From Citrifermentans bremense (GTDB lineage Bacteria > Desulfobacterota > Desulfuromonadia > Geobacterales > Geobacteraceae), in assembly GCF_014218275.1 (NCBI RefSeq), contig NZ_AP023213.1, forward strand, positions 3,140,001 to 3,204,000: 64,000 bases of DNA. The letters are read 5' to 3'. Position numbers and translations under genes: made by a program. Below are positions 1 to 18,131 of this stretch, in pieces (position 1 is the first letter of the stretch; each line of letters opens with the position of its first letter). Below the pieces are notes generated by a model, which had not been told where the DNA came from, did not search any database, and worked only from the letters and a program-made list of their open reading frames with translations.

Positions 1-2
1 GC

Positions 3-2315
3 ACCCTTGAACTGAGAAACGAGCGCATCCAGCAGGCCACGTCCTTGGTCAACCAAACAAAGGATCTTTTCGACCTGTGCGGCAATCCGGAACTGAAAAC
101 ACTCTACAGCCGCTTCGACAACCTCCTTAAAGGGCTCGAATCGAGCCAGGTCCGGCTGGCGTTCATTGGAGAATTCTCCCGCGGCAAATCTTCCTTGGTC
201 AATTCGCTCCTAGGAGTGCAGTTGCTCCAGGAGGCCCTGGAGCAGACGACCGCAATCAACACCTTCATCCATGCCCTCCCACCACAGGAGGACACTCCCT
301 TCGTGATCATACATTTCAAGGAGGAGTTGGACCGGCCTCCACTACGCCTACCCTGGAACGACGATCAGGTACTAAAGAAATGGGGAACTGAGCTAGTAAC
401 CGAGCACCGGGACGCCCGTCTGGAGGTAGACCGCATCGAGGCATTCACCCGGCACCCCCTGCTTGACAAGGGGCTCATCCTCGTGGATACCCCCGGACTC
501 CAAGGGGTGTTGAAACATCACCATGACATTACCATGGAAGCAATCGACCGGGCCCACATCGCCGTCTGGGTGCAAAGCACCACCCAGTTGGGCGGTGCAG
601 AAACGGAATGGCGTTTCCTGCGCGAAACGGTACGCAGGAATTTCAACAAGTTCATTACTGTGGTCAATATGTGGGACAAGGTATTGGAGGCCCAAGACGC
701 ACAGGATAAAAATGTTTCGCGTGAAGAGTTGGATACCCGCAAAATGGAAGTGGTTCGGCACAACTTTAGGACCCAACTGGACGCAACTCCGGAGGAACTA
801 GCGGTGCTGACCAGCAGGCGAAACCTCATGGGAGTAAGTGCCCTGTGGGGGCGTGATCCGGACCCAGATAAAAGACGATTATCCCGCATCGATGAATTGG
901 CCGAGCGTATCGCCGAGATTTGTACAGGCGAGGAGGCCCAGCAGGAAATCCTACGGAGGCCGTTAGCCACTTTGGGTGACATCCAGACCACTCTTTTAGC
1001 CACGGTTCAGGATGAAATACGCCTGTTGGAGTCTCCGCAGGACTTGAAGGAGCACAGGCGAGAGTTGGAACTGCTTGAGCAGGAAATCAGGAACCTCAAC
1101 CTCGAGCTAAAAAATGCGGAGAACGAAACACGAAGTGAGCACCACAATGCGGCCATGCACCACGCGAGAAAGGTCCGCGAGACGCTGGTTGAGCCCCTAA
1201 AGGAGTTAAGGGACCGGGTGGAGCAGTACCTGACGCCCCAGTACGTAAGGAGGCAGATTGAAAGTAGCTCAGCCCGGGGGGGAACCTGTGCGATCGGCCT
1301 ACCGGAATCCGTCCAGGAGGAGTTTGAGCGGGTGACCAAAGAAGTCGATGCTCGCTGGGAACTTCAGAAAAGTGAACTGCAGTCTGCCCTGCGGGACCTT
1401 CGGACCAATTATCAGGATGAGATGACTAGGAGGGTCAGCGAGGTCCACAACTCTCTGGACAATATAAACATCAGCCTCCCGAACCTTGACATCAGCTTCG
1501 AGATTGACCTCGTAAAAGTGGTCGAATACCAACAAAAGGCCATGGAACTGCAGGCGATGAAAGAAAACTGTGAGAGAGACATTGCCGATCTGGATGCGGA
1601 TCTTATGCAACATGGGGAGAACCACTCGAGGTTAGAGTTGGCTCGCCAAGCCCTTGAGCGGGCAGAGCGGAACATCCGCAACCTTGGCCCTCAGCCATCC
1701 CCACTCCAAGGAAACCGGAGAGAAAAGGTATCCAGCGGCGGCCTGTACAGGTCGGCTCAGTACGCCAATGTCCCCTATGCTGATGACTCCAACCTCCGCG
1801 CTTACCAGAAGGAGAGGGAAGAACTCAAGGAAGTGCTTGCCCAAAGGGAGAAGGGGTTGGAATTGGTGATAGAGGAAGAATTCAAGCGGTCCCAGAAACG
1901 GATCTCGCTGAAGGCGGCGCAGCAGAAGGTGGAGGCGGAATTACGGCGACTTGAGAGGCAGGAGAAGGAGTACCAGCAAAAAGTCGAGGCAGACAAAGTC
2001 CAGATCGCTGAGCAGATATACCAGACCCTATCAAGACGGACCGCCGGTGACCTAACGCTGCGAATAGCCTTCTTAGAAAAGCATGTCGCCTCTGCGGTTG
2101 AAAAAGTATTTAGCGACCAACTCGATTTGCTCATTGGCTGCGTAGAGGAGCAGTTTGTGGAACCTCTACGCGCCAAAGCGGGGCAGCGCGAGCAATCGCT
2201 GGAAAGTATCGGCAAAGGAGAAGAAGAGGTAGCACGCCGCCTTTGCCTGCTTCATGAGGCCTGCGGTCGATTAGAGAATGTCGCAGCACAGACGCGTGCG
2301 GCTCTTGATCAATAA
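3..2315 (+). CDS. Dynamin-like GTPase A (5' end probably outside window)
   Basis: Large GTPase of the bacterial dynamin-like type, expected to bind GTP and act on membranes. Counting from the TTG at 45, the P-loop GEFSRGKSS is at residues 42-50, the G3 motif DTPG at 148-151, and NMWDK near 208-212 stands where NKxD is expected. The remaining 500 or so residues are charged and helical with long coiled-coil stretches; no membrane segment is visible. The reading frame is open back to base 3, so the TTG at 45, which has no convincing ribosome binding site, is unlikely to be the true start and the gene is treated as 5'-partial. It is followed after 15 bp by a second GTPase, a tandem arrangement typical of bacterial dynamin pairs. 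Family placement rests on motifs and architecture; the biological role is not known. Confidence 0.8.
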   Translation, partial: TLELRNERIQQATSLVNQTKDLFDLCGNPELKTLYSRFDNLLKGLESSQVRLAFIGEFSRGKSSLVNSLLGVQLLQEALEQTTAINTFIHALPPQEDTPFVIIHFKEELDRPPLRLPWNDDQVLKKWGTELVTEHRDARLEVDRIEAFTRHPLLDKGLILVDTPGLQGVLKHHHDITMEAIDRAHIAVWVQSTTQLGGAETEWRFLRETVRRNFNKFITVVNMWDKVLEAQDAQDKNVSREELDTRKMEVVRHNFRTQLDATPEELAVLTSRRNLMGVSALWGRDPDPDKRRLSRIDELAERIAEICTGEEAQQEILRRPLATLGDIQTTLLATVQDEIRLLESPQDLKEHRRELELLEQEIRNLNLELKNAENETRSEHHNAAMHHARKVRETLVEPLKELRDRVEQYLTPQYVRRQIESSSARGGTCAIGLPESVQEEFERVTKEVDARWELQKSELQSALRDLRTNYQDEMTRRVSEVHNSLDNINISLPNLDISFEIDLVKVVEYQQKAMELQAMKENCERDIADLDADLMQHGENHSRLELARQALERAERNIRNLGPQPSPLQGNRREKVSSGGLYRSAQYANVPYADDSNLRAYQKEREELKEVLAQREKGLELVIEEEFKRSQKRISLKAAQQKVEAELRRLERQEKEYQQKVEADKVQIAEQIYQTLSRRTAGDLTLRIAFLEKHVASAVEKVFSDQLDLLIGCVEEQFVEPLRAKAGQREQSLESIGKGEEEVARRLCLLHEACGRLENVAAQTRAALDQ

Positions 2316-2330
2316 GACGAGGAGGAACTG

Positions 2331-4580
2331 ATGGATCTCGATAAGGTTATGGAACTAGTGCCGGAGAAGCTGCGGGAGTCGGCGGATGCGCTTTGCGCGA
2401 GAACCTTGCACTCGGGAGAAGCCCTCAAGGTCTGTCTCGTCGGGGCTTTTTCTTCAGGCAAGAGCAGCCTTATCAACACACTTATTGGGGAGAACATACT
2501 ACCCACCGCTCTGGAAGAGACTACAGCGCTACCGACTTTTATCGAGTACGGAGAGGAACTGGCCATGCAGTTGGTGAACCAGTCAATGGAGACCACTCCC
2601 CTCACCGTAGTGGAGTTCCAACAGTACACTATCGCTGCACCGGAGGGAGCGGCCTTTACCCTACTAAAGCTGCCACAACCCTGGTTGCAGGGGCTACTAC
2701 TCATAGATCTTCCTGGCCTAGGGGGAAGTTCGGAGGAGGCCCGCAGTTACACTCTGGCACAAATCAGACTTGCCGATGTGCTGGTCTACATGATCCCTGC
2801 AAGGGGACCAGCAAGCGAGGACCTGGAAACCCTTGCGGAGATAGGAAGCTACGGTAAAAGGATCAAAATAGTGGTCTCCCACTGGGATGAGGTTGAGGCC
2901 GCCGCGGCCGCAGGTCAGCAAGTGCCGGACCTCTCACGGTGGGCGGAACACATCCAGCAGGGGGCCGGCCTGAAGACGGTTCGCCTCGAGGGGGTAAGCA
3001 GGTTCGGGCACGGGAAGGAAGCTGTGCTGGAGTTCCTGGCACGTGCTCTTGACGATGCCAGCCTTATCAGAGAGCGTCGTTTTAAAGCAGAACTGGAGCC
3101 GTTAGTGCGCAACGCCCTCGATTCTAATCTGGAAGAGCAGGAGTGCTGCTCCGTTCAGGGTGAGGAGGCCATACAGGCGCTCCACGAACGGCTTCTTGCT
3201 TCTAAACGTGAACTCATCGAGTTAAAGACCTCTCTCTATGAGCAGCAGCACCAGGACCAGAATCGGCTCGAACAGGAGGCATCCCTGGCTCTGGAACGGA
3301 TACGTCAGGGGCTAAGTGACAAACTCGAGGCGCTACGCGCACCGCTCGAGGCACGCTTCTCAACGGAACAATGGGACGCCTTCCTGAAGCAGGCGCAGCA
3401 CCACTCGAGGGGGGCGGTGGCTGAGGCCGCCGACGCCCTCAGCTCGCATTCAGCCAGCTACGGAAAAATAAACCTTCTCGCCAGTGAGATGCAGGCGCTC
3501 AACCTGCATTTCCCTGTGCCTGAACAGGTGGAAGCTTCCGATTTCCTTGATCTAGCGCAGCTTAAGAGGCTGGAGACGGCGCTCACTGAACTGCAGGACA
3601 TGCAGAAAAGAGAACAGCAGAAGTGCGACTCCCTCCCAGTGCCGCTGGCGCAGGCGACCGAGCGAGAGCTGGAGCTGGAAGAGCTCCGAAAGCAGTACTT
3701 AAAACTACAGTCGACACCGCTGCCCCACGTGATCGAGGAAATCACCAGCAGCGGCATCGGAAGCACAGTCGGGCGCACGGTTGGGGAAATTGCCGACATA
3801 GCCCTCCTTTTTGTTAACCCCACCACCGTAGCCTCCAAGACCGCATCCATTGTCGGCAAGGGGGCCAAAGTGGTAAACATTGCTGTCGATGCAGGCAAGG
3901 TGGCCAAAACCGTCAGTAAGGGTGTCAAAACTGCGAAGGCTTTGCAGTATGGCAACAAGGTTCGCCCATTGGCAGAGAAATTCGGGGTGCTCGAGATGCT
4001 ATCGCTTGGATACTGGGGGGAGAAGATCGGCGGAATGTTCGATACCCAAAACCAAGCTTTAGAATACATCGACCCCGAGGCCCTAGCCTGTCAGCAGGCT
4101 GCGCTCAATGAGATACAAGAGCGTATGGCTGAGTTCATCCGGCAGCAAAACCGCCTTATGGACATTGAATCTGAGCGGGAACTCTCCGGCCTAGCCCTTG
4201 AACAAAGCCGACGGGAGCAGGCCGTGATCGCTCAGCGAATCGCCGCACTGAAGGAGCGGGCTGAGGCGAATGCGCAAGCGGCCAAGGAGGAGGCTGCGCG
4301 CCGGCACGAGGCGCTCAGGCAGCAGGAGACCGAAAAGGCCATCCGTCTGCTATTGCGTGCTTTCGAGCAACAAACCCGGCCCATGTTCGAACTGCTGCTG
4401 CTACGCTGCAAGCAGTACTGGCAGGACGAAGTGGAACAGACTATCTCGGAGCGGACGGCAGAAATCGAGTCGCTGACCGCGCGACTTGGAAAAAGCCCCG
4501 CAGGGCAGGAAGCTGAGCTGGCACTACTCGACGCTGAGGCGAACGACCTGCGTCAGGTACTTGGGATACTGGCCGCATGA
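2331..4580 (+). CDS. Dynamin-like GTPase B with a hydrophobic segment
   Basis: Second dynamin-like GTPase, 749 aa. P-loop GAFSSGKSS is at residues 38-46, DLPG at 126-129, and SHWD at about 183-186 sits in the G4 position instead of NKxD. Helical, coiled-coil-rich regions follow (about 270-470 and 590-700). Between them, residues of about 470-570 form a Gly/Ala/Val-rich low-charge stretch that could insert into a membrane, like the paddle or transmembrane region of bacterial dynamins such as DynA or LeoA. The ATG at 2331 has a strong GAGGAGG ribosome binding site. With GTPase A it probably forms a heteromeric pair, one soluble and one membrane-binding; this is inference from architecture. Function unproven. 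Confidence 0.82.
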   Translation: MDLDKVMELVPEKLRESADALCARTLHSGEALKVCLVGAFSSGKSSLINTLIGENILPTALEETTALPTFIEYGEELAMQLVNQSMETTPLTVVEFQQYTIAAPEGAAFTLLKLPQPWLQGLLLIDLPGLGGSSEEARSYTLAQIRLADVLVYMIPARGPASEDLETLAEIGSYGKRIKIVVSHWDEVEAAAAAGQQVPDLSRWAEHIQQGAGLKTVRLEGVSRFGHGKEAVLEFLARALDDASLIRERRFKAELEPLVRNALDSNLEEQECCSVQGEEAIQALHERLLASKRELIELKTSLYEQQHQDQNRLEQEASLALERIRQGLSDKLEALRAPLEARFSTEQWDAFLKQAQHHSRGAVAEAADALSSHSASYGKINLLASEMQALNLHFPVPEQVEASDFLDLAQLKRLETALTELQDMQKREQQKCDSLPVPLAQATERELELEELRKQYLKLQSTPLPHVIEEITSSGIGSTVGRTVGEIADIALLFVNPTTVASKTASIVGKGAKVVNIAVDAGKVAKTVSKGVKTAKALQYGNKVRPLAEKFGVLEMLSLGYWGEKIGGMFDTQNQALEYIDPEALACQQAALNEIQERMAEFIRQQNRLMDIESERELSGLALEQSRREQAVIAQRIAALKERAEANAQAAKEEAARRHEALRQQETEKAIRLLLRAFEQQTRPMFELLLLRCKQYWQDEVEQTISERTAEIESLTARLGKSPAGQEAELALLDAEANDLRQVLGILAA

Positions 4581-4605
4581 CGGCCTGGACAGCTGTGGGG
4601 GAGTT

Positions 4606-4983
4606 ATGCAAACAGATGAAGAGCTGTCGGCTGTACGCGCGACCGTGATCGGGGCTGATTTCAACGGATTCCTGGTATCGGAGGTTATCGACGGTTATCT
4701 GAAGCAGGTGGCCGAATCGGCGGTCCGGTCAGAGGCAAGGAACGCCGCACTCCAAGATGAAAACGTAAGGCTGTCTAGAGAATTAGAGAGGCTCTCCAGC
4801 GAAATGCAGCAAATTTCAGATTCTATCCGCAAAGAGATCTCCCTGCTCGATGGGCGTGTGGACGAATTAACCCAGCTCATTATCAAGACTGCCACCGCCC
4901 TCGCGATGGACCACGCCCCTCCCAACTCCTCCGACGAGAGTCACCAGTCTCGGACGCGACGGCCTAACCTTTTTGGTAGCTAA
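4606..4983 (+). CDS. Small coiled-coil protein of the GTPase operon
   Basis: A 125-residue hypothetical protein with no family I recognise. The ATG at 4606 is preceded by a GGGGGAG ribosome binding site and lies 25 bp after the stop of GTPase B. Residues of about 40-95 are a clear amphipathic helix with heptad-like leucines and isoleucines, predicted to form a coiled coil. The C-terminal 25 residues are polar, rich in Ser, Asn and Arg, and probably disordered. The next gene starts 13 bp later, so all are presumably translated from one transcript. A scaffold or adaptor between the GTPases is the simplest guess, by context only. Confidence 0.7.
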   Translation: MQTDEELSAVRATVIGADFNGFLVSEVIDGYLKQVAESAVRSEARNAALQDENVRLSRELERLSSEMQQISDSIRKEISLLDGRVDELTQLIIKTATALAMDHAPPNSSDESHQSRTRRPNLFGS

Positions 4984-4996
4984 GAGGGAGATCGCC

Positions 4997-5782
4997 GTGA
5001 CTGGTGAACTGGAGATCGCAAGTGAGGACCGGCGGGCCTTTATGATCCGTAATAGGAGCAGTGAGCCAGATTTGCCCTCCCGCTTGCGCATCACACTCAA
5101 AGAGGAGATTGACCGGATTGTGCCGGATGACGCCCCCAGGCTTGCAAGCGAGGTGAAGGCCCGACAGCGCCTAGATGACCTAGCTGAGTCGGCACCGGCT
5201 GTGCTCATCCTCCTTGCCGGCGACTTCCTCGTGGGTGAGGGCTCTTGGACTATCCTCCGGGATTGCGCAACCATCCATCTTTACGCAAGGATCCTCGATG
5301 ATGCCCTTGACGAAAACATGCCGGTGCACCGCGGCAACCTGCTACGCGCCCAGCCTATGCTATGGCGTGCAATTGGCGGGCTCGCGGCATACCACGCGAA
5401 ACTTTGGCCCGAGGCGACCCATCTAATTGACGAAACCGTAGCTGGGGTCCATGCAGACAACCAGTACACCGACGTGAGATCTTGGGGACGAAAAAACCAC
5501 CACCTGTTGCTGATCCCCTTGCTTCTCAGAGAAAACAGCCCAGAGTACCAAGCCTGCAAGACGGCATTATCCCATGGGATCTGGGTTTTACAGGCGCGGG
5601 AGGAACTGCAGCAAGTGCGGATCAGGGAAGTAGCACCCCTTGTTCTGGATTGGCTCTCTTGGTTCCTGTCCGGCCCCGGGCTCCCCTCCCTGGCTGAAAA
5701 TGGTTGGAGTCTCTTTGCCGATCGCTGCCTTTACGAGGGGCAGCAAATCATTAACCAATTGCAGTGTCTCTCGAGGGATTAA
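4997..5782 (+). CDS. Isoprenoid-synthase-like helical protein with DDxxD motif
   Basis: A 261-aa protein, mostly helical by composition. I chose GTG 4997 because it has AGAGGGAG in front and a 13-bp gap from the previous stop; a TTG at 4973 would overlap that gene. Residues 93-113 read HLYARILDDALDE followed by an HRG at 111-113. That resembles the first aspartate-rich helix of trans-isoprenyl diphosphate synthases and class I terpene synthases (DDxxD, then a basic-Gly motif a few residues later), and the following Leu/Ala-rich helix also fits. A second metal-binding motif (a second DDxxD or an NSE triad) is not evident near the C terminus, so activity is uncertain and the fold may serve a regulatory role. 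Finding such a protein between dynamin-like GTPases is unusual. Assignment is by motif only. Confidence 0.5.
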   Translation: MTGELEIASEDRRAFMIRNRSSEPDLPSRLRITLKEEIDRIVPDDAPRLASEVKARQRLDDLAESAPAVLILLAGDFLVGEGSWTILRDCATIHLYARILDDALDENMPVHRGNLLRAQPMLWRAIGGLAAYHAKLWPEATHLIDETVAGVHADNQYTDVRSWGRKNHHLLLIPLLLRENSPEYQACKTALSHGIWVLQAREELQQVRIREVAPLVLDWLSWFLSGPGLPSLAENGWSLFADRCLYEGQQIINQLQCLSRD

Positions 5783-5784
5783 GA

Positions 5785-7266
5785 ATGCCAGCGAGTACTA
5801 GCCCCATACTTTCCCGAACCATCGCCGAGTTCTGTCTCAAGATGCAGGAAGCGCGGACCTATGGGGATGCTGTAGCATCGATCCGCATCGTAGGAGAATT
5901 TTCGGCCGGAAAAACCATGTTAGTCCGCACCCTGCTGGAGGGACTGGCAGAACCTGGCCTGCTCCCCCACAGCGCTATGGAACGCGAGACATTTCTACCA
6001 CTCGAGGTTACCTACGGCCCCAGGGTGAGGCTTACGGTGCTGGAAAGGCCCACTGATGACTCCCCTTCGCGTGAGATCGCCGAACTCTGTGCCTTTCCAA
6101 ATCGACAGGAGCAGCTGACTAGGTTTCAGCGTGGGACTCACCGCCTTAGGCTTGAGGTCCCAGGCCTGGAATCCCGCGTGATATTGCCTCCAGGAGAGGA
6201 CTACCTTGACAGCGAGGAACCTCTCCGATTCTCCCTCGTTGATATGCCGGGCTGGAACTCTGGGGAGAGCAGAATGGAGGAAAACCCGCAGGAAGACCTG
6301 ATGGGGGAGTGGAACCTTGCAGCAGTATATGTGGCGAATGCCTGTCGTCTCGACTCGGCGCTCAACCAAGAACTCCTGGAGCGTTTTTGTGACGCTTCAT
6401 TTTCCAGTTTCCCCGCAGTGCTGTATTACCTCATCACTAGCTGCCCTTCGGTGGACCGTGAGCGTATTGTCGCCAGGGAACAGAAACGCGCAAGAGAATT
6501 GCTTACCAGGGTACTTAGCAGCAAGAACATGGATGAGGGAGATTTTGTACTTGTGGTAGAAGCTGTGGATTTTGAAGCCATGTCCTCAGCCGAAAAAGAA
6601 CTCTTCAGAGAAAACTTCTGGTGCGGGATCAACCGTCCCCCGCGGCGGGACGGGAACATTTGGGAAAGATTGATCTGTGAATGGCCACCGGAATGGGAGG
6701 TCAATGGGTATTTTTCTGAAGTCGGTACTGCCGTAGAGCGTGCACGGGCAACCCTGATAAAAGTTAAACGGGATGGAAGGTACCTGGCACGTCTCAACAG
6801 GACAATGCTTCTGGAGCTTAGTCCTGAGGAGAGAGCAAAGAAGGTCATGAAGACATGGCTGGAACAACTCGGAGTGGCTGACGCGGTACCTGCTTTTTTC
6901 CCGGCAACTCGTCCCCTCCCCTCAGGCCATCCGCTAAGCGCCTGGTGGTCAAATTACTTTGAACCAAGCTTGCGTGAAATACGGACCCCTTTGGAGACGC
7001 TTCTAGAGGAGGCTGCCCGAGCCATAAGCCTAATCCCCGAGGAAGCAGACATTGAAAGCTATCTCTCCGGATGCCTCGATGGCTTCCTGGTGCGGGCGGA
7101 AGAAGCACTATACTCCTCATTTGCTTCTCTTTGTTCCAACCTCACTGCCCTCTCAAAACATTCCCCCACCGAAATCATCGCCACAGCACTGACTCTCTCT
7201 GTTATGGACGGCAAATACCGTGACTACCTGTCCCAAACCTCCTTGCCTAAGCAGACGGGTTTTTAA
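5785..7266 (+). CDS. Third P-loop GTPase, dynamin-like operon
   Basis: A 493-aa protein with a GTPase N terminus: P-loop VGEFSAGKT at residues 36-44 and DMPG at 154-157, and no NKxD-like G4 motif that I can identify. The P-loop (GEFSAGK) is of the same style as in the two larger upstream GTPases, suggesting shared dynamin-family ancestry, but the protein is shorter and its C-terminal half is helical without obvious long coiled coil. ATG 5785 was preferred over GTG 5764 because GAGGG lies 8 bases upstream and it starts just after the previous stop at 5782. It probably works with the two large GTPases, possibly as a third subunit. Specific function unknown. Confidence 0.68.
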   Translation: MPASTSPILSRTIAEFCLKMQEARTYGDAVASIRIVGEFSAGKTMLVRTLLEGLAEPGLLPHSAMERETFLPLEVTYGPRVRLTVLERPTDDSPSREIAELCAFPNRQEQLTRFQRGTHRLRLEVPGLESRVILPPGEDYLDSEEPLRFSLVDMPGWNSGESRMEENPQEDLMGEWNLAAVYVANACRLDSALNQELLERFCDASFSSFPAVLYYLITSCPSVDRERIVAREQKRARELLTRVLSSKNMDEGDFVLVVEAVDFEAMSSAEKELFRENFWCGINRPPRRDGNIWERLICEWPPEWEVNGYFSEVGTAVERARATLIKVKRDGRYLARLNRTMLLELSPEERAKKVMKTWLEQLGVADAVPAFFPATRPLPSGHPLSAWWSNYFEPSLREIRTPLETLLEEAARAISLIPEEADIESYLSGCLDGFLVRAEEALYSSFASLCSNLTALSKHSPTEIIATALTLSVMDGKYRDYLSQTSLPKQTGF

Positions 7267-7365
7267 TTTTCCTTCTTTTCTCAGTTGGGACACCTAATCA
7301 TGTGACAGCACTTGTCGCTTCGGGAGCGCATACTTCTCCAAAGACTTGATTCCAGGAGGTGTAGT

Positions 7366-9540
7366 ATGGCGCGATGGCCTTTGAGACGGCAGCCCTTAGT
7401 GAAGAAACTTGACAAGGAAATGAGCAGGTACCTTCCGCTTTTCGGAATATGGCTTATAGACCTAACCATCATCTGTGGGTGGCATAGACCAACTTCGCCA
7501 AGAAGGTGGCCCGAAATCTTTGATGATGCCGATTTTTGCCTGATGACGGGGATGGAGTCGGTTAATTCTACTTCGGCCACTGATGATGAGGAGGATAACG
7601 ATGAAGAACCCATTGGCACCATCACCGTTTCGCGCTGCCGAAAGTTGCTGCACAGGCACCGCGCACTACTTATCAGGAAGAAACTATGTTCTCAGTTACC
7701 GATGTTCAAAAATATTAATTTTCTTGCTGAGTTACTAGATTTAAATGATGCCGACAAAGCCGCGCTGACCTTTGCTGCGGGGTTGAAGGTATTTCCCCAA
7801 CTTGACGGTGCGATCAGCCCGCGTGGAGAAAAAGTCTCGACCACTTCTTTTTGCAAGATTCTTGCGCGCATCACTGGGTTGCCAGAACAGGATCTTCTTT
7901 CAGCTCTCTCGCCGGACGGCCCGCTGGTAACTACGGGCTTGGTGAAAGTCAATCGGAGTGTGTGCTACCTCGAAGAGAAGATCGCATGCATCAACGGATT
8001 GGAGGACATTCTGCTTCTGGATCACAGGGACTCAGCAGAGGTTATGGAGTGTTTCCTACGGCCAGTGGATGAGCCTTCTCTTACGTTGGCAGATTTCCCC
8101 CACCTGCGTCGGGACAGCAACCTTTTAGCGGGCTACCTATCTAGCGCCTTGGACGCCAAGACGCAGGGGGTCAACATTCTCATCCATGGAAGGCCAGGAG
8201 TGGGTAAAAACCAGTATGTACAGGCTCTTGCAGCCGAGCTGAAGGTAAAGCTGTACGAAGTATCCTACTCGGACAACGATGGCAATCCCGTGAAGGGCGA
8301 GAGTCGCTTACGTGCCTACGCCCTTTGCCAGCGCTTCTTAGCCCGCGCCCCGGGGAGCATGCTGCTGTTTGACGAGGTTGAGGACGTATTCCAGGGGGGG
8401 CATAACTTCTTCAGCATGCTAATGGGCGATGAAGAACGCTCTGATGGTAATGGCAAGGCTTGGATCAACCGTACCCTGGAAGGTAACCCCATTCCCTCGA
8501 TTTGGATAAGCAACCGTGTAAACCAGATCGACAAGGCGTACCTCAGACGTTTCGACTACTCCGTCCACTTTCCGACCCCGCCGTTGGGCGTACGAGTTTC
8601 CATGGCTAAGTATCATCTGGATCAGTTCAATCCGCCTGATTCGTGGATCGAACAACTGGCGTCCAACGATGAGATCACTCCTGGACAATTTCAAAAGGCC
8701 GCTAAAGTGGGTCTCATCGGCAGCAAAGGAGACAACAAGCTGGCCCTGAATCTGGTGGAAAACGTGCTACTTCGAAGCACGTCTCTTCTTGGTCAAAGAC
8801 GCACACCAAATAGAAATATTCTCCGGACGGGTTACAGTCTGGAGTGGCTGAATACTGATGTCCCTGTAGCATCACTGGCCGAGGGAGCAAGGCTTCGTCC
8901 AAGAGGAACCTTCTGCTTTTATGGCGCCGCCGGCACTGGCAAAAGCGAACTTGCCCGTTATCTTGCCGACCAGGCGGGGAGGCCGTTGTTGGTGCAGCGC
9001 GCCTCAGACATCCTGAGCCCTTATGTAGGGGTTGCTGAGCAGAATATTGCTGAAATGTTCGATCGGGCCCGCCAGCAAGATGCGGTACTCGTCTTGGACG
9101 AGGCCGACAGCTTTCTTGCCGACAGGCGCGGTGCCCACAGGAGCTGGGAGGTGACGCAGGTGAATGAACTACTCACCCAGATGGAAGCCTTCGACGGGAT
9201 CTTCATCTGCACAACAAACCTGATGGAGAAGCTTGATCCAGCGAGCCTGAGGCGCTTCGCCTTTAAGGTACGCTTCGACCCTTTGACTCCAGACCAACGC
9301 TGGTCCATGTTTCAGTGGGAGTTATTAAGGCTCGCCGGATCTGGAGATGAGGCATGCGGCTTCGAGCAAAAGGTGCGCTGCCTTGAAGCCCTTACTCCTG
9401 GCGACTTCGCAGTGGCGGCTCGCCAATTTGATATCCTGGGTATAGCAGTTACTGCAGACGATCTTTATTGTACTTTGTTAAAAGAGTGTGAGGCAAAACG
9501 GGGCAGAATGCACAGGATTGGTTTTGAAACAACCGGGTGA
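7366..9540 (+). CDS. Tandem AAA+ ATPase
   Basis: A 724-aa protein with two AAA+ modules. The first Walker A (GRPGVGKN) is near residues 275-282 with Walker B MLLFDEVED near 331-339; the second Walker A (GAAGTGKS) is near 520-527 with Walker B VLVLDEADSF near 575-584, followed by a TTNLMEKLDPASLRRF segment resembling sensor 1 and arginine-finger regions of COG0464-type ATPases. The first module has Asn after the P-loop Lys, where Ser or Thr normally coordinates Mg, so it may bind but not hydrolyse ATP. The N-terminal 240 residues are an unassigned helical domain. ATG 7366 has AGGAGGT at 7354-7360; the in-frame TTG at 7312 lacks one. Same strand as the GTPases, after a 99-bp gap. Probably a remodelling or unfolding motor for operon partners. 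Confidence 0.82.
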   Translation: MARWPLRRQPLVKKLDKEMSRYLPLFGIWLIDLTIICGWHRPTSPRRWPEIFDDADFCLMTGMESVNSTSATDDEEDNDEEPIGTITVSRCRKLLHRHRALLIRKKLCSQLPMFKNINFLAELLDLNDADKAALTFAAGLKVFPQLDGAISPRGEKVSTTSFCKILARITGLPEQDLLSALSPDGPLVTTGLVKVNRSVCYLEEKIACINGLEDILLLDHRDSAEVMECFLRPVDEPSLTLADFPHLRRDSNLLAGYLSSALDAKTQGVNILIHGRPGVGKNQYVQALAAELKVKLYEVSYSDNDGNPVKGESRLRAYALCQRFLARAPGSMLLFDEVEDVFQGGHNFFSMLMGDEERSDGNGKAWINRTLEGNPIPSIWISNRVNQIDKAYLRRFDYSVHFPTPPLGVRVSMAKYHLDQFNPPDSWIEQLASNDEITPGQFQKAAKVGLIGSKGDNKLALNLVENVLLRSTSLLGQRRTPNRNILRTGYSLEWLNTDVPVASLAEGARLRPRGTFCFYGAAGTGKSELARYLADQAGRPLLVQRASDILSPYVGVAEQNIAEMFDRARQQDAVLVLDEADSFLADRRGAHRSWEVTQVNELLTQMEAFDGIFICTTNLMEKLDPASLRRFAFKVRFDPLTPDQRWSMFQWELLRLAGSGDEACGFEQKVRCLEALTPGDFAVAARQFDILGIAVTADDLYCTLLKECEAKRGRMHRIGFETTG

Positions 9541-9602
9541 GCCGTGAAAGGGGGCAGTTGAGTGGCAACCCTCCAGACGATTGTTGCTGCAGTAGCCGCC
9601 CC

Positions 9603-10367
9603 CTACTCCAATCGCAGTAAGGACCGGAGGAGGTCAACAGTAATCTCCAACTGGCTACCGGCCGCGAACGCCTTTAACGTAACGAGGTTCCCCTCCACCC
9701 TGCGCAGGTCGCCGGTTGTGACAGTTGCAAAATGCAGAGCTACCTCTTCCGATAAATCGAGACCGTGTTCAATAGCTTTTTTCCTTAGAAACAAGAGCCT
9801 GGTTTCCTGATCCGGTGCTTCAATTCTCACAATCACCCCACCACACAACCGGGACAACAATGCCTCATCAATTACAGCCCCCCGGTCACGCATGGTGCGG
9901 CAAGTCGCCACGACCTGCCTCCCCGCTCTCTGCAATGCCTCGATGGAATTGAAAAACTCCTCCTGGGTAGCCTCTTTCCCTGCCATGAACTGGATATCGT
10001 CGACCAGAAGGAGGTCGACCGTACGAATGCTGTTGCGGAATCGATCCATTTTATTGCCACGCAAGGCCTGAATCATCTCGTTCATGAACTGTTCACTTGA
10101 GAAGTTAAGTATGAGAGCAAGAGGATTGATCCTGATCCTTTCGTTGCCAACCGCGTGCAGCAGATGGGTCTTACCAACGCCAACGCCGCCGTATATTAGG
10201 AGGGGATGGCAGCTTCCCAACACCCCAGCGGCGACATCCCGCGCAGCAGAGCAGGCAAAACTATTGCCCGCGCCACACAGGAATGCGTTGAACGTTTGCA
10301 TTGGATTAAGGCCTGTTGATTTCATGTAACGGGCGCCCCCTGCCCCTCTTGTAATACGCAATGTCAT
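9603..10367 (-). CDS. DnaA-like AAA+ protein without domain IV
   Basis: A 254-aa protein that aligns by eye with DnaA domain III: Walker A GGVGVGKTHLL at 60-70, then SEQFMNEMI, the initiator-specific segment (GNKMDRFRNSIRTVDLLL), Walker B LLLVDDIQF at 119-127, a KEATQEEFF helix and LLSRL near 171-175 at the box VII arginine position. The C-terminal DnaA-box-binding helix-turn-helix domain and N-terminal domain I are absent. The length recalls Hda, but the initiator-specific motif makes it a DnaA derivative rather than an Hda orthologue. It overlaps the upstream gene by 4 bp. Possible roles are a DnaA antagonist or an element-specific replication factor; 11-bp tandem repeats lie about 750 bp upstream. 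Confidence 0.85.
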   Translation of the reverse strand: MTLRITRGAGGARYMKSTGLNPMQTFNAFLCGAGNSFACSAARDVAAGVLGSCHPLLIYGGVGVGKTHLLHAVGNERIRINPLALILNFSSEQFMNEMIQALRGNKMDRFRNSIRTVDLLLVDDIQFMAGKEATQEEFFNSIEALQRAGRQVVATCRTMRDRGAVIDEALLSRLCGGVIVRIEAPDQETRLLFLRKKAIEHGLDLSEEVALHFATVTTGDLRRVEGNLVTLKAFAAGSQLEITVDLLRSLLRLE

Positions 10368-10756
10368 GAACTCTCCGGTGGAGAGGGAAGGTCTATCTCA
10401 GCAGTTTCAGCCTCGTCGGGCAACCATTCAAAATACGTCAACCCGATTCGTTTCCGCCGGGATCCTTCGAGGTAACCTTCAATTGAATAAGTTGCCCCGT
10501 TGAAATCAACGGAAAAGTAGATGCTGCCACACTTGAAGAAACTATCTTCTTCGACGTTCAATTGTGATCTCAGTGGCTCCGCCCAGGCGTCATGCCCAAT
10601 ATAGCGTAACCTTCTCCGGCAGGGCCTTATTTTGAAGGCATCTCGGCACAGCCCAGGGTTTATCACAGTGGCAACCGCAATAAAAACTTTCCATCGGTGG
10701 AGATTAGCATCAATCTTTGCCACCCGGTTATGCATCTCATTCAGCAACGTCTCCAC
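10364..10756 (-). CDS. Hypothetical protein translationally coupled to the DnaA-like gene
   Basis: A 130-aa protein of no family I recognise; the stop overlaps the start of the DnaA-like gene by 4 bp, indicating coupling. I used GTG at 10756, which has GGGGAG about 6 bases upstream. The same frame stays open and protein-like for about 27 further codons upstream (acidic and hydrophobic pattern, to about 10,837), but contains no ATG, GTG or TTG there and is closed by a TAG, so the gene may have lost its 5' end or use an unusual start. The C terminus is acidic and Pro-rich. The function is unknown; context links it to the DnaA-like protein. Confidence 0.6.
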   Translation of the reverse strand: METLLNEMHNRVAKIDANLHRWKVFIAVATVINPGLCRDAFKIRPCRRRLRYIGHDAWAEPLRSQLNVEEDSFFKCGSIYFSVDFNGATYSIEGYLEGSRRKRIGLTYFEWLPDEAETAEIDLPSPPESS

Positions 10757-10902
10757 CTCGAACTCCCCGAGTGTGTATGCCTCACCTTCTTTTTCGACAT
10801 CGCGATTTATCCTTTTCGTAACTCCATACAGTGATTCAATATACTATGGGTACGACAAAACGCGTCGCATCGCGAAACTGACAAATTACAATTCCCCCTG
10901 CT

Positions 10903-11106
10903 CTACCCCTTCACTTCCTGCCAAGCCGCGGCGTCATAAATTTCCCAGACTTTGCCGTCCTCAACGTGGCATCTCGGGCTCCATCCGTCGGTTGGCGCCA
11001 AGACCATGAGGTCGGAGTAGGGACGCACGTATTTCTTTCCGAGAACATTGGTTATTTTTCTGCCAAGGTGCTCTCTAAAAGAATCTGATGAGAGGGGTAC
11101 AGGCTT
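10903..11106 (-). pseudogene. C-terminal gene remnant beside the 11-bp repeats
   Basis: An open minus-strand frame of about 67 codons with convincing protein character (for example GKKYVRPYSDLMVLAP, then a segment rich in Trp and Asp) that ends at a TAG (10,903-10,905). Upstream it runs directly into the tandem repeats, where a TGA closes the frame, and there is no credible start codon. I read it as the 3' remnant of a gene whose 5' part was lost or replaced at the repeat boundary. The parent family was not recognised. Confidence 0.4.
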
Positions 11107-11170
11107 TCACCAAACTTTCACCAAACTTTCACCAAACTTTCACCAAACTTTCACCAAACTTTCACCAAAA
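11105..11170. repeat. Six tandem copies of an 11-bp repeat
   Basis: Five perfect direct copies of TTTCACCAAAC at 11,105-11,159 followed by a sixth, TTTCACCAAAA, at 11,160-11,170, with no spacers. The 11-bp period is close to one helical turn, so a protein bound to each copy would lie on one face of the DNA, as with plasmid iterons. The array sits between the DnaA-like gene pair and the selC fragment. Iteron, integration accessory site or simple slippage product are all possible. Confidence 0.95.
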
Positions 11171-11294
11171 ACCGCGAATTGTAGTGACTCTCCCCGGTCC
11201 GCTGCGGACTCCAACAGACTGGAGAAGTGCGGCTAACAACCTATTTATACAGCATAAAACCACTAAATCACATGATGATTAAGAAAGCGGCTTG

Positions 11295-11323
11295 GTGGGT
11301 TCGATTCCCATGTGCTTCCGCCA
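11295..11323 (+). other. 3' fragment of tRNA-Sec gene (selC): probable attR of an integrated island
   Basis: The segment contains a T stem GTGGG, loop TTCGATT and stem CCCAT (11,295-11,311), then GTGCTTCC, discriminator G and CCA (11,312-11,323). The 3' acceptor strand is 8 nt, which is diagnostic of selenocysteine tRNA rather than the usual 7; E. coli selC likewise ends in CTTCCGCCA. No D arm, anticodon arm or 5' acceptor is found upstream; the DNA there is the repeat array and AT-richer sequence. A lone tRNA 3' end followed by its terminator is the classical distal junction of an element integrated into a tRNA gene, so intact selC should lie left of the window. Confidence 0.82.
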
Positions 11324-11355
11324 TTAACCATTTCAAACCATTTCAAGGTATTGCT

Positions 11356-12497: not shown

Positions 12498-13424
12498 ATG
12501 CTGACCAGCCGGTTCATATCGTTGCTGATGGCTCTGGCTTTCCTTGTTGCTCCAGGATGCAGCAAAGAAGAGCCTAAGAAAATCGACCTGGGCAAAAGGG
12601 AAGTCCTGAAGAACGCTGACAGAGCGAAAACTGGGGTGATCCGGATCGCGGTAGGCGGTATGATAACTCCCAAGGAGGGGCTCGCCTACTACCGCGAATT
12701 CCTCGACTACATTGGCGACGAACTCGGCAAGCCCGTGGAATACGTGGACATCCCGAGCTACGAGGAAACCAACAAGATGCTGGAGAACCGGAACATCGAT
12801 GCCGCCATCGTCTGCAGCGGCCCCTATGTCGACGGTCACAAGAAGTTCGGCCTGGAACTTTTGGCCGCACCCAAAGCCTTTGGCGCTGCCGTTTATTATT
12901 CCTACATCATCGTTCCGAAAGAGAGCTCCGCGAAGGCCCTGGACGACCTGAAAGGGAAGACGTTCGCTTTCACGGATCCCCTCTCCAACAGCGGAAAGCT
13001 GGTGCCTGAGTACCTCCTCGCGAAGAAGGGGTACAGCTCAAGCACCTTTTTCAGCAAGACCGTCTATTCGGGCTCTCACGACAAGTCGATACAGGCCGTG
13101 GCCGGCGCGCTGGTCGACGGAGCTGCCGTGGACAGCCTCATCTGGGAATACCTCGCCAGGACCAAGCCCGAAATGACGGCGAAGACGCGGATCATCCTCA
13201 GGTCCGAGCCTTACACCACCCCGCCCTTCGTGGCCCACCCGGCGATGAATCCCTCAGTCAAGGAAAAGCTCCGCACCATCCTGCTCACCGCCCACACCAC
13301 CCCTAAGGGGAGAGAAATCCTGGAAAAGATGATGACCGAACGCTATGTGGCGGTTGAAGACAGGGACTACGATTCGGTTCGCGACATGAAGAAATGGGTG
13401 TCGGGTCGGCAAAAGGAACGGTAG
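12498..13424 (+). CDS. PhnD-like periplasmic substrate-binding lipoprotein
   Basis: A 308-aa protein with a signal peptide ending in a lipobox-like APGC, so probably anchored as a lipoprotein. The body matches the phosphate/phosphite/phosphonate-binding PhnD family: an early IRIAVGGMITPKEGLAYY, then YVDIPSYEETNKML and an AFTDPLSNSGKLVPEY segment, and a late YDSVRDMKKW. ATG 12,498 has AGGAGGA upstream. No ABC permease or ATPase follows; instead a membrane histidine kinase starts 7 bp after the stop. It therefore probably presents its ligand to that sensor rather than feeding a transporter. Ligand unknown; oxyanion or phosphonate by family. Confidence 0.85.
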   Translation: MLTSRFISLLMALAFLVAPGCSKEEPKKIDLGKREVLKNADRAKTGVIRIAVGGMITPKEGLAYYREFLDYIGDELGKPVEYVDIPSYEETNKMLENRNIDAAIVCSGPYVDGHKKFGLELLAAPKAFGAAVYYSYIIVPKESSAKALDDLKGKTFAFTDPLSNSGKLVPEYLLAKKGYSSSTFFSKTVYSGSHDKSIQAVAGALVDGAAVDSLIWEYLARTKPEMTAKTRIILRSEPYTTPPFVAHPAMNPSVKEKLRTILLTAHTTPKGREILEKMMTERYVAVEDRDYDSVRDMKKWVSGRQKER

Positions 13425-13431
13425 CCAAGAC

Positions 13432-16092
13432 ATGCGAAAGCCGGCCCTCAACCTGAGATCGAAGATACTCGCCATATTCCTGGCCATCTCCCTGGTGACC
13501 ATAACCGGCATGATCGTGATCGCCCTGCTGTTCATCAAGCCGCTTCTGGAAGCGAAGCTTGAAAAGCGCGGCCAGTCGATAGCCCACGCCATCTCTTACC
13601 AGTGCATAACTCCGGTCCTCTCCAGGGATTTCCTGCAACTGGACCTGTTTTTACGCGAGTACGCCAACTCCGAAAACGACGTCTCCTACATCTATGTCAC
13701 CACAGCTGAAGGCGAGGTCATCGCCCACTCCTTCGGCCGTACCTTCCCGGTGGCGCTGAAGGAGTTGAGCCGGCGGGCCGGGAAGGAGGCCAACGACATC
13801 ACAAGGCTCCAGACGACGGAAGGGGACATAATACAGATATCCGAACCGATCCTCGACGGACACCTGGGCAGGCTGCATGTCGGAATGTCCCTCGCTCCGA
13901 TACAAAAGGACATCAACGAGATCATCATGTCCCTCATAAGCTTCGCCGCCCTGTTTTTCTTCTCGTCTTTGCTGCTGTTACTGTTCATCGACAGGTGGAT
14001 TGTAAGCCCCATATTCCTGATCAGGTCCGCCTCGCTGAAGGTCAAAGCGGGCGACATCGACAGCAGGGTTGCGGTGCGCTCCAGGGATGAGATCGGAGGC
14101 CTCGCCGAGGATTTCAACGGCATGCTCGACGCTATGAAGGAGTCCAGGGCATCGCTGGTTCAGGAGAAGCAACTGCTGGCCGAAAGCGAAAACAGGTTGA
14201 GGAAAATCATCCAGCAAAGCCCCTTATCCATGGCCCTTGTCAACCCGGACGGCGCCATAGAGTACATAAACGACTACGCCGTGCAGACCTTCGGTTACCA
14301 GCCTCAGGACATCCCCCACATCAAAGAGTGGTGGCTCAAGGCATTCCCCGATCCCGAGTACCGCAAGCAGGTGACCGGCCAGTGGACGGCACTCATGAAA
14401 AAAGCCGCCGCCGAAAACGGGTACATCGAGCGCCGGGAATACCAGGTCACCTGCAAGGACGGCACGCAGAAGACGATCCTCATTTTTGGGCTTTTGATCG
14501 ACAACGAGGTCTTCGTCGTCTTCGAGGACATCAGTGCCCTGAAGCAGGTCGAGAAGGAGTTGAGAGCGTCGAAAGAGCACTTGGACGCCACTATCAACGC
14601 ACTGCCCGATCTCCTGTTCAGGATCGACCGGGAAGGTCACATCTACGAAGCCCGCTATTCCAGCGCGAACCAGCTCTACCTCGCGCCGGAGCTCTTCCTA
14701 GGCAGGCGGCTGACAGAGGTACTGCCACCTGAGGCTGCAGCCGTCATAATGACCGCCCTTGGCGAGGCCGTCGCCAAGGGAAGCCATCGCGGCGCGATCT
14801 ATTCGCTCCCCCTCCCCCAAGGAGAGCGGTGGTACGAACTCTCGTTGGCAGCGATGGGAAGGCCGGATCACCCGCAGACCCAATTCATCGTGCTTGCCCG
14901 CGACATCACGGAAAGGAGGCTTGCCGAGCAGGACCGGCTGAAACTCGAACAGCAACTGCTCCACGCCCAGAAGCTTGAGAGCCTGGGGGTACTGGCTGGG
15001 GGGATCGCCCATGACTTCAACAACCTGCTGACCGCCATCGTCGGCAACACAGATTTAGCCTTGATGCGCCTCGCCCCGGAGTCACCGGTACGGGACAACC
15101 TGCAACGCATCGAGCAGGCAGCCGGCCGTGCGGCGGATCTTTCCAAGCAGATGCTAGCGTACTCCGGCAAAGGGAGGTTCGTGATAGAAACAATCGATCT
15201 GAACCGGCTGATCAGGGAAATGACGCACATGCTGGAAGTTTCCATCACCAAGAAGGCCGTCCTCAACTTCAAACTTACCGACCCGCTGCCGACCATCGAG
15301 GCGGATGCCACGCAGTTGCACCAGATCATCATGAACCTGATCATCAACGCCTCCGAAGCCATCGACACGGAGAGCGGGGTCATCTCGATAGCTACCGGCA
15401 GCATGCAGTGCGACAGGAACTACTTGAACAGCATCTGGATGCACGAGCAGCTTGCCGAGGGGCTCTACGTCTGGCTTGAGATAACCGACACCGGTTGCGG
15501 AATGGACGCTGAAACGGTAGGGAAAATGTTCGATCCCTTCTTCACCACCAAGTTCACAGGCCGGGGACTCGGCATGGCCGCGGTGCTCGGCATCATCCGC
15601 GGCCACAAAGGGGCGATCACGGTCAAAAGCGAACCGGGCCGCGGCGCCGCCTTCAGGGTTTTCCTCCCTGCCGGCGGCAAGCCAAAGGACCCCGCAAACG
15701 GTGGAAATCGCGATGAGGCGGGTTGGAGAGGCAAGGGAACAGTGCTGCTCGTCGACGATGAACAGACGGTCCTCGATATAGGCGGCGAGATGCTGAAGGA
15801 ACTGGGATTCGAGGTCGTGACGGCGATGGACGGCAGCGAGGCGCTGGAGCTCTTCAAACAGGACGTAGAGAGATTTTCCTTCATCATTCTCGACCTGACC
15901 ATGCCGCGCCTGGACGGCGAGCAGACCTATCGGCAGATGAGACAGCTAAAGCCCGACGTCAAGGTGGTCATGTCCAGCGGCTACAACGAGCAGGAGATCA
16001 ACCAGCGTCTAGGGGGGACGGGGCTCGCCGGTTTCCTGCAAAAACCTTACAACCTCTCCACGCTCAGAGACGTCATAAAGGAGATGAAGTGA
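13432..16092 (+). CDS. Membrane hybrid histidine kinase (HAMP-PAS-PAS-HisKA-HATPase-REC)
   Basis: An 886-aa sensor kinase. A transmembrane segment at about 10-35, a periplasmic part to about 165 and a second transmembrane segment near 165-190 are followed by HAMP (to about 240), two PAS-like regions (about 255-370 and 385-500), a HisKA H-box with phospho-acceptor His527 in GGIAHDFNNLL, an HATPase domain (N box MNLIINASEAI, G boxes DTGCGM and GRGLGMA) and a C-terminal receiver with Asp821 in ILDLTMPRLDGE. It sits 7 bp behind the PhnD-like lipoprotein, a likely extracytoplasmic input partner. No DNA-binding response regulator is adjacent. The stop overlaps the start of the next gene by 4 bp. 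Confidence 0.9.
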   Translation: MRKPALNLRSKILAIFLAISLVTITGMIVIALLFIKPLLEAKLEKRGQSIAHAISYQCITPVLSRDFLQLDLFLREYANSENDVSYIYVTTAEGEVIAHSFGRTFPVALKELSRRAGKEANDITRLQTTEGDIIQISEPILDGHLGRLHVGMSLAPIQKDINEIIMSLISFAALFFFSSLLLLLFIDRWIVSPIFLIRSASLKVKAGDIDSRVAVRSRDEIGGLAEDFNGMLDAMKESRASLVQEKQLLAESENRLRKIIQQSPLSMALVNPDGAIEYINDYAVQTFGYQPQDIPHIKEWWLKAFPDPEYRKQVTGQWTALMKKAAAENGYIERREYQVTCKDGTQKTILIFGLLIDNEVFVVFEDISALKQVEKELRASKEHLDATINALPDLLFRIDREGHIYEARYSSANQLYLAPELFLGRRLTEVLPPEAAAVIMTALGEAVAKGSHRGAIYSLPLPQGERWYELSLAAMGRPDHPQTQFIVLARDITERRLAEQDRLKLEQQLLHAQKLESLGVLAGGIAHDFNNLLTAIVGNTDLALMRLAPESPVRDNLQRIEQAAGRAADLSKQMLAYSGKGRFVIETIDLNRLIREMTHMLEVSITKKAVLNFKLTDPLPTIEADATQLHQIIMNLIINASEAIDTESGVISIATGSMQCDRNYLNSIWMHEQLAEGLYVWLEITDTGCGMDAETVGKMFDPFFTTKFTGRGLGMAAVLGIIRGHKGAITVKSEPGRGAAFRVFLPAGGKPKDPANGGNRDEAGWRGKGTVLLVDDEQTVLDIGGEMLKELGFEVVTAMDGSEALELFKQDVERFSFIILDLTMPRLDGEQTYRQMRQLKPDVKVVMSSGYNEQEINQRLGGTGLAGFLQKPYNLSTLRDVIKEMK

Positions 16093-16595
16093 GCCTTGCC
16101 ATCAGAAAAGAAGCTCCCGCCGATGTAGCCGCCATTGAGGCGGTCACCATTGCCGCCTTTCTAAACACCCCGTACACGAGCCACACCGAGCAGTTCATCG
16201 TCAACGCGCTACGCAAAGCCGGCAAACTCACCGTCTCTTTAGTCGCAGAAGAAGGCGGTGAAATCGTGGGTCATGTCGCCGTATCACCGGTCTCTGTTTC
16301 GGATCGGACAACCGGCTGGTTTGGCTTGGGACCTATTTCCGTTCTCCCGGAATGGCAGGGGCGCGGGATCGGTTCAGCTCTTATGCAGGAAGCTTTGAGG
16401 GTGCTTGAAGAGGAAGGAGCCGCAGGATGCGTGCTGCTCGGCGAGCCCGAATACTATGGACGCTTCGGCTTCCGTGCCGAGCCGAATCTGGTCCTCCCCG
16501 ACGTCCCGCCGGAATACTTCCAGGCGCTCGTCTTCAGGCCGCCCCTCCCCTGCGGAACCGTTTCTTATGACAAAGCGTTCAACGCTCAGGAGTGA
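16089..16595 (+). CDS. GNAT family N-acetyltransferase
   Basis: A 168-aa acetyltransferase of the GNAT fold, transferring an acetyl group from acetyl-CoA to an unidentified substrate. The core motif A is visible as LGPISVLPEWQGRGIGSALM, with the Q/R-x-x-G-x-G/A pattern QGRGIG that binds CoA pyrophosphate, and a later GEPEYYGRFGF segment typical of the YhbS-like subgroup. The GTG start overlaps the kinase stop by 4 bp, so it is probably translated from the same message, although a functional link is not obvious. Full length for the family. Confidence 0.88.
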   Translation: MSLAIRKEAPADVAAIEAVTIAAFLNTPYTSHTEQFIVNALRKAGKLTVSLVAEEGGEIVGHVAVSPVSVSDRTTGWFGLGPISVLPEWQGRGIGSALMQEALRVLEEEGAAGCVLLGEPEYYGRFGFRAEPNLVLPDVPPEYFQALVFRPPLPCGTVSYDKAFNAQE

Positions 16596-16611
16596 GAGGA
16601 AAATGCTTCGT

Positions 16612-16986
16612 TCAGGCAGCCTTTCTGGGGGGGGTAAGTACCGATAGTGCCAGATCGCTCGACTGGAAAGCAGATCTCCCTAATTTCTGAAAGGCCCTGG
16701 GACCTCCACCGATCAAAAGCCCCGCGGCCTCCTGGGTAAGATGCAGCTTCTTTCTGATGCGGCGGATTTCCTCCGGCAGAAGGAGTCCCTCATAGAGGGC
16801 CTTGAGGTGGTTCAACATGCGGTCGGAAACCTCCAAATCCTCCCCGGTATGAACACTCTCCTCCGACTCATCACAGTACCACCCCGGCATGTCGAAGGTC
16901 ACCGATTCCCCCTTATAGGTGAGGGTCATGGGGCGCGCGTCCCGGTACATCGGCACCCCTGTTTCGGGACAGACAGGGTTACTCAT
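16612..16986 (-). CDS. MqsA/YgiT-like antitoxin, no toxin partner seen
   Basis: A 124-aa protein. Its C-terminal half carries the MqsA-type helix-turn-helix: LLPEEIRRIRKKLHLTQEAA followed by IGGGPRAFQKLGRS, the usual G-G-x-x-x-F motif of this antitoxin family. The N-terminal half corresponds to the MqsA zinc region but keeps few cysteines (a single C near CPETG and one in GWYCDES), so metal binding is doubtful. Start 16,986 has AAGGAG upstream; a longer start at 17,031 is less likely. In typical systems an MqsR toxin lies just upstream, but here that side holds only a fragment of an unrelated plus-strand gene, so this looks like an orphan regulator. Confidence 0.75.
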   Translation of the reverse strand: MSNPVCPETGVPMYRDARPMTLTYKGESVTFDMPGWYCDESEESVHTGEDLEVSDRMLNHLKALYEGLLLPEEIRRIRKKLHLTQEAAGLLIGGGPRAFQKLGRSAFQSSDLALSVLTPPRKAA

Positions 16987-17025
16987 GAACCTTCTCCTTG
17001 AACGACAGCAGCAGAAATTCCGTAA

Positions 17026-17136
17026 CGACAAGCCGGCTATCTCAAGGCGGATACCCGCGACTGGCTCCCCTCACACTTCGATACCGCCAGCTACAAATCC
17101 AAACGGCGCAAGTACTTCGCCTCGCCGAAAAAGTAG
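17026..17136 (+). pseudogene. Short C-terminal gene fragment, unknown
   Basis: An open frame of 36 codons with protein-like composition (a TRDWLPSHFDTASYKSKRRK stretch) ending in TAG at 17,134-17,136 and closed upstream by TAA, with no start codon. It lies between the antitoxin and the amidase-like gene and is probably a remnant of a deleted gene. No family recognised. Confidence 0.3.
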
Positions 17137-17197
17137 GCCGGAAAGACAAAGAAGAGCCGGTGGATCGCGGAGGCATCGCCCCAAAAGGAGGTTGCTC

Positions 17198-17884: not shown

Positions 17885-18131
17885 CTGGGTCCCCCTGCCC
17901 TGCCCCATCAAACCGTGCATGGCAGGGGGCAGAGACCAATGCCTTTCGCGCTCTTCAGGGATCTTACACTTGGAGCCGAGTACGACATAGGAGAAAAAGC
18001 TTTTTCCACCGACTCCGTTGACCTATACCTCGTGGCGCCCTTGTACCTGGGATCTACATGGAAATCCCCTCTCTTTGTCAAATCCCACTTAGGCCCATGG
18101 ACCGGCTAACGAATTACACGAATCATTGCGT

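Follow-up and report, generated by a model that had tools for sequence, protein, structure and literature searches.

Two adjacent gene modules, one Zorya-like and one dynamin-based, at the right end of a selC island in Citrifermentans bremense

An 11-gene run near the right end of a selC island

The DNA analyzed here (the window) is a stretch of 64,000 nucleotides from Citrifermentans bremense (contig NZ_AP023213.1, positions 3,140,001 to 3,204,000), for which a search for the nearest E. coli DNA gave no match. At its left edge lie six open reading frames, all on the plus strand and without internal stops. The first two, dyn1 (window 1..2315, 782 aa) and dyn2 (2331..4580, 749 aa), encode large dynamin-like GTPases (Pfam Dynamin_N, 1e-20 and 5e-19, respectively), and they are followed by cc (4606..4983), encoding a short coiled-coil or adaptor-like protein of 125 aa with coiled-coil matches only; by a gene labeled "prenyl" (4997..5782), whose 261-aa product has a DDAxDE motif and no family match; by gtp3 (5785..7266, 493 aa), for a third, diverged GTPase of the dynamin superfamily (Dynamin_N 1e-4, below the cut-off); and by aaa2 (7366..9540, 724 aa), for a tandem AAA+ ATPase with two AAA modules (3.6e-39). 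RBS-supported starts were placed at window -33 for dyn1 (its ATG lies 34 bp upstream of the window start) and at 2331, 4606, 4997 (a GTG), 5785 and 7366 for the others, leaving gaps of 15, 25, 13, 2 and 99 bp. The original prediction, which described six same-strand genes with 2-25 bp between them and 99 bp before the ATPase, and which called two of the products dynamin-like GTPases and another a third GTPase, was confirmed on the layout and also on the GTPases, the third of them with the sub-threshold score given above.

The cluster begins before these six genes, and the six do not form a single unit. The co-directional run already starts ~5.5 kb ahead of the window, where another five genes on this strand precede dyn1 (given here in the coordinates of L002, in which window position 1 is 18001): an orphan gene of 219 aa (L002 12507-13166), aaa1, encoding an AAA+ ATPase of 341 aa (13225-14250), a gene for a 422-aa helical protein with the working label "pore" (14286-15554), a zorA-like gene (15551-17269, 572 aa; PADLOC ZorA 4.9e-9) and a zorB-like gene (17266-17898, 210 aa; PADLOC ZorB 7.7e-18, OmpA domain 4.5e-9). 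From the orphan to the zorB-like gene the gaps are 58, 35, -4 and -4 bp, and 68 bp then separate the zorB-like gene from dyn1; all 11 genes are co-directional in the C. bremense genome, and the coding strand showed no terminator-like site in the intergenic gaps of the run. The interpretation first placed on the six genes was partly supported; it missed the Zorya-like quartet that lies directly upstream, outside the window. The orphan had no Pfam match above the cut-off and no PDB match; its His-Gly and Gly-x-Cys motifs resemble those of caspase-fold proteases, and a relative in Dickeya, found in one of 23 genomes searched, stands alone among chromosomal genes. Upstream again (L002 8769-12169) is a dual-specificity phosphatase and ADP-ribosylglycohydrolase gene that a transposase insertion (9380-10932) has cut in two; relatives of it, as matched by tblastn, occur near the quartet in four other loci (L038, L053, L056 and L059), and a longer ADP-ribosylglycohydrolase is encoded elsewhere in the island (L156 15774-17399).

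The cluster is near the right end of an island of ~95 kb integrated at the gene for tRNA-Sec, selC, and the suspicion of a selC island in the original prediction was well founded, with a tRNA, an integrase, a repeat and an empty site in two relatives all in evidence. The intact tRNA-Sec gene (G000:C1:3056311-3056408; RF01852, 74.9 bits) has a tyrosine integrase gene beside it (Phage_integrase 1.3e-12, Arm-DNA-bind_2 6.5e-15), the two together occupying G000:C1:3056311-3057751, 95 kb upstream, and the right attachment site (window 11294..11324, plus strand) is identical over 31 bp to the 3' end of tRNA-Sec. No tRNA was found in the window by ARAGORN or by Rfam at its gathering threshold, the 3' fragment alone being present. 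Five direct repeats of ACTTTCACCA (window 11114..11167, plus strand) may be arm sites for the integrase; at the other island end two more copies lie beside selC, and one further copy in the window is inside aaa2 on the minus strand (7940-7949). A query made of the joined flanks matched through the junction in two members of the genus, G457 and G458 (221 bp, 91.4% and 89.6%), and since no more than 8 bp separate the aligned flanks in G457, its selC site is empty; the same empty site was seen in both sister genomes.

Nine of the 10 large island proteins scanned matched PADLOC defence models at 1e-5, among them a DruE-like helicase (a partial frame), a type IIG restriction enzyme-methyltransferase, a DrmD-like protein, a ZacC-family protein (1131 bits) and a NERD-UvrD protein. 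Genes for helicases and methyltransferases, along with BREX/DISARM/Druantia-like ones and the gene for the ZacC-family protein, make up a large block of the island (G000:C1:3059565-3091053). The gene cluster stops ~1.8 kb short of the island's right end, and directly inside that end, on the minus strand (window 9603-10367), is a gene for a 254-aa protein consisting of the DnaA ATPase domain alone (Bac_DnaA 9e-45; TIGR00362 below its cut-off), which might serve in replication or mobility of the island. Trp and Leu leaders suggested near 11.3 kb were set aside, as the Rfam matches were below gathering scores and overlapped the tRNA fragment and its terminator-like hairpin.

The Zorya-like quartet

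The order aaa1, helical protein, zorA-like, zorB-like was first matched on a plasmid of Paraburkholderia sp. PGU19 (aaa1 50% and zorB 37% identity), and when genome contigs were scanned with aligned aaa1 sequences, at least 80 loci were obtained. We took as quartet loci the 29 of these with 46-59% aaa1 identity and added the PGU19 plasmid and one E. coli genome, which gave 31, some of them near-duplicates (e.g., L056/L059 and L041/L045/L150). The complete ordered quartet was present in 28 of the 31, all Beta- or Gammaproteobacterial, and the three without it (L033, L034 and L035) run off contig ends. In the other 51 loci (34-45% aaa1 identity) there was no match to the helical protein or ZorA and a single ZorB-type hit; only 33 of them have downstream DNA of 5 kb or longer, so absence from the rest means little. 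Conservation extends to single residues, as Asp14 of ZorB, which aligns with an Asp of canonical ZorB1, is invariant (25/25), as are the ZorA motif GLLGTF-G (26/26) and Gly2 of the helical protein (26/26, after four of 30 ORFs of odd length had been dropped), whose N-terminus is rich in small residues, amphipathic and helical in appearance.

With Zorya types I-III the quartet shares an adjacent pair of ZorA (MotA-like) and ZorB (MotB-like) genes, the transmembrane aspartate and OmpA-like domain of ZorB, and a long ZorA C-terminal region that matches ZorA models. It differs from them in having an AAA+ ATPase and the helical protein before zorA, and its ZorB is only 23-25% identical to canonical ZorB1. 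None of the 11 genes of the C. bremense cluster matched a PADLOC model for ZorC, ZorD, ZorE, ZorF or ZorG, the last two of which, as DUF3348 and DUF2894, respectively, define Zorya III in the portion of PMC8565338 available. The quartet has the look of a Zorya-like system that has no name yet and is present in many Proteobacteria; if active, it would be one more way of arranging the ZorAB motor, here with no recognized nuclease or helicase as partner.

In E. coli the quartet covered most of the query in one of 5,426 genomes, the other matches listed being short and within IS3-family transposase sequence; in that genome (NZ_LR536430.1) the quartet is preceded by an IS3-family element and followed directly by a gene for a tyrosine recombinase, a type I restriction system lies ~7 kb away, and the annotation of the quartet goes no further than "ATP-binding protein", "hypothetical" and "OmpA/MotB family". 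A gene of the phage-integrase family (checked with Pfam in L041) belongs to a cluster seen in six quartet loci. Half of the large neighbors of quartets that were scanned (5/10, from four loci, hand-picked and without a control) matched PADLOC at 1e-10 and the other half had no match. In Alishewanella a canonical Zorya I ZorA (755 bits) is encoded just downstream of the quartet; there (L051 16347-19372) the canonical zorA and a 263-aa ORF that is zorB-like by position and BLAST follow directly, placing two ZorAB sets side by side. Plasmid tblastn searches with the helical protein and the zorA-like protein gave no match, nor did a scan of viral contigs with the helical protein.

The dynamin quintet and the tandem ATPase

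A concatenated query was run against 23 genomes, comprising 22 from the 29 genome-contig quartet loci and the Parcubacteria genome of L070, and prenyl together with gtp3 was matched in one, a Malikia MAG. There (L114), dyn1, dyn2, several small proteins, a long frame, prenyl and gtp3 form one operon, with identities to the C. bremense proteins of 42% (dyn1), 42% (dyn2), 40% (prenyl) and 36% (gtp3); the gtp3 homolog, like gtp3 itself, matched Dynamin_N below the cut-off (6e-5). The Malikia small proteins occupy the same place as cc and by eye share an N-terminal motif, and homology to cc was not established, as BLASTP E values were ~0.3-0.4. Five of the six genes of the block thus recur together in an unrelated genome, cc by position alone, but aaa2 was not matched in the Malikia quintet region. 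Relatives of aaa2 are found in 93 plasmid records, and relatives with 35-40% identity over most of the length lie in unrelated contexts on plasmids (L025, L026 and L027, the first a defence island), and a long match near the quartet was seen in one of the 31 loci (Pseudomonas lactucae). For these reasons we left aaa2 out of the dynamin module, in which the original prediction had included it; it is probably a separate, widespread and mobile passenger. Like aaa1 it shares its AAA domain with IetA of IetAS (IetA models 1.1e-33 for aaa2 and 2.9e-29 for aaa1), but aaa2 scored 109 against a cut-off of 510 for the IteA/IetA equivalog, and no subtilase-family (IetS-type) hit was listed among the 11 genes.

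Sampling indicated that the quintet is rare. A two-sequence profile (A5) of prenyl and gtp3 was applied to four genome sets, partly overlapping and drawn from larger groups (1,330 entries, with the first few candidates scored per genome): in the sets of 399, 398 and 269 genomes it matched C. bremense or Malikia alone, and in the set of 264, which contained no known positive, it gave no match, an outcome that by itself carries no weight. Three marginal P-loop hits (G720, G964 and G1161; E 4e-4 to 7e-4) covered the GTPase region alone and were not counted. A search with prenyl matched only its own genome among 297, and a class-wide search with dyn1 matched 39 of 277 genomes including its own, the others being local matches of 25-34%, mostly to the GTPase domain. 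Plasmid searches with dyn1 of either genome found generic dynamins alone (23-34% identity), plasmid tblastn with prenyl and with Malikia prenyl and gtp3 found no match, and scans of viral contigs with dyn2 and with prenyl, whether run as single sequences or as alignments, were likewise empty. These distributions bear on whether the genes could be for maintenance under envelope stress, i.e., membrane repair, and be on the island by chance. Membrane surveillance and repair roles are ascribed to bacterial DLPs in the available parts of PMC8844932 and PMC6104087, and by eye the Malikia operon is near ordinary chromosomal genes with no evident defence island; the genes are rare, however, are island-borne in C. 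bremense and were not found in the other 18 members of the genus, and we consider chance residence of a repair function quite unlikely.

Among structures, dyn2 matched PDB 5owv (1.5e-10), the Campylobacter DLP pair. The quintet resembles paired bacterial dynamins (Cj-DLP1/2, LeoABC and DynA) in its two adjacent dynamin genes with similar GTPase domains, and differs from them by the addition of a third GTPase, a coiled-coil protein and the DDxxDE protein. Most bacterial dynamins are encoded as pairs, and a pair of them tethers membranes, according to the excerpted text of PMC6104087. Because dyn1 partly resembles LeoA (PADLOC 1.3e-16), and because LeoABC is reported to affect periplasmic release (PMC4159319, in part), a LeoABC-like function in membrane vesicles or secretion, instead of defence, deserved consideration. 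It appears very improbable: dyn1 scored 31.9 bits for the NCBIfam LeoA/HP0731 family against a cut-off of 325, there is no split LeoB/LeoC, and the large proteins of the island match defence models in the proportion given above. The placing of LeoA itself on a selC-inserted island in the original prediction found no backing in the available text of PMC4159319, which names neither selC nor tRNA. The remark in that prediction that it knew of no described system with such a make-up was borne out, as the gene set is absent from the portions consulted of the literature on ZorAB with dynamins and on further Zorya types.

The DDxxDE protein had been called isoprenoid-synthase-like. Its DDAxDE motif is invariant in both homologs and that much of the description stood, but family-level similarity did not: prenyl matched no isoprenoid-synthase family in Pfam, NCBIfam or a PDB profile search, and in hhalign comparisons with two polyprenyl synthase groups it reached a probability of 0.1-0.2% and so did not outscore ten unrelated families, whereas a two-sequence profile of one synthase group, the positive control, found the other at 99%. 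The best short stretch of one such comparison spanned 28 columns and took in the DD motif of prenyl, without being significant. We therefore dropped the label and kept the motif, and a distant fold relation to isoprenoid synthases is possible.

Two modules or one machine

Two stacked modules are the most economical reading of the cluster, and we lean, if cautiously, towards two adjacent envelope-acting modules, probably anti-phage, at the right end of the selC defence island. Every functional step of both is one that we infer. The quartet would form an ion-driven motor of the ZorA/ZorB type that is anchored to peptidoglycan and triggered by envelope disturbance upon infection, with aaa1 and the helical protein as an effector arm replacing ZorCD, ZorE or ZorFG; in Zorya, the available part of PMC11890865 reports that defence requires ZorB D24 and peptidoglycan binding and proposes that ZorAB is triggered through peptidoglycan upon infection. 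In the quintet, Dyn1 and Dyn2 would act as a pair on the inner membrane, gtp3 and the coiled-coil protein might control dynamin assembly, the DDxxDE protein might act on or sense a membrane component, and the outcome could be membrane sealing or delayed lysis. The quintet is known from two genomes, one of them a MAG, and its putative defence role is suggested by the island location and by DynA, which delays lysis (PMC8844932, excerpt), rather than by its own genes. It nonetheless represents a defined multi-gene set of partners for bacterial dynamins, here on a mobile defence island, and with such a set the part that dynamins are proposed to play in phage tolerance can be put to the test.

The 11 co-directional genes, the lack of a terminator-like site in their gaps and the joint presence of quintet and quartet in Malikia favor some coupling between the modules. 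They could be one integrated machine, in which the motor, aaa1 and the helical protein would sense infection and recruit or power the dynamin pair, and a single run with gaps of -4 to 99 bp and only 68 bp between the modules speaks for this, as does the carriage of a quartet by the only other genome with a quintet. The quintet occurred in one of 22 other quartet genomes searched versus no further genome in the sampling (rough Fisher p = 0.016), a result that is only a hint, because the background genomes may themselves include carriers of a quartet and the genome sets overlap. In the Parcubacteria contig (L070 2907-8237), an aaa1-like ATPase is followed by two dynamin-like GTPases, possibly an independent AAA-dynamin pairing, but the contig had no match to the other quartet genes. 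Moreover, the modules are separable: no dynamin, prenyl or gtp3 match at E <= 1e-6 was found in the DNA of the 31 quartet loci, and in Malikia the quintet and quartet are on different contigs (lengths 228,214 and 104,726), at least ~118 kb apart from their positions on these, with no quartet gene within 19 kb upstream of dyn1. We regard one integrated machine as rather unlikely. Slightly less probable again is a version in which an ion-driven Zorya-type motor at the envelope of the infected cell would be linked, via aaa1 and a helical protein that inserts into the membrane, to heterotypic dynamins, with membrane remodeling as the effector; if true, sensing by a peptidoglycan-anchored motor would be executed by membrane remodeling, not by DNA cleavage.

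The long frame of the Malikia operon (L114 8472-11534) seemed Hsp70- or actin-like by eye, a resemblance that is unproven, Pfam having returned Lcl_C alone and below its cut-off. Before it lies the row of small proteins (L114 6043-8119), which have a common motif by eye and are otherwise different; two of them matched Biotin_lipoyl below the cut-off (E 0.001-0.006) and one matched OST-HTH/LOTUS (1.4e-5), and as a group they look like interchangeable adaptors.
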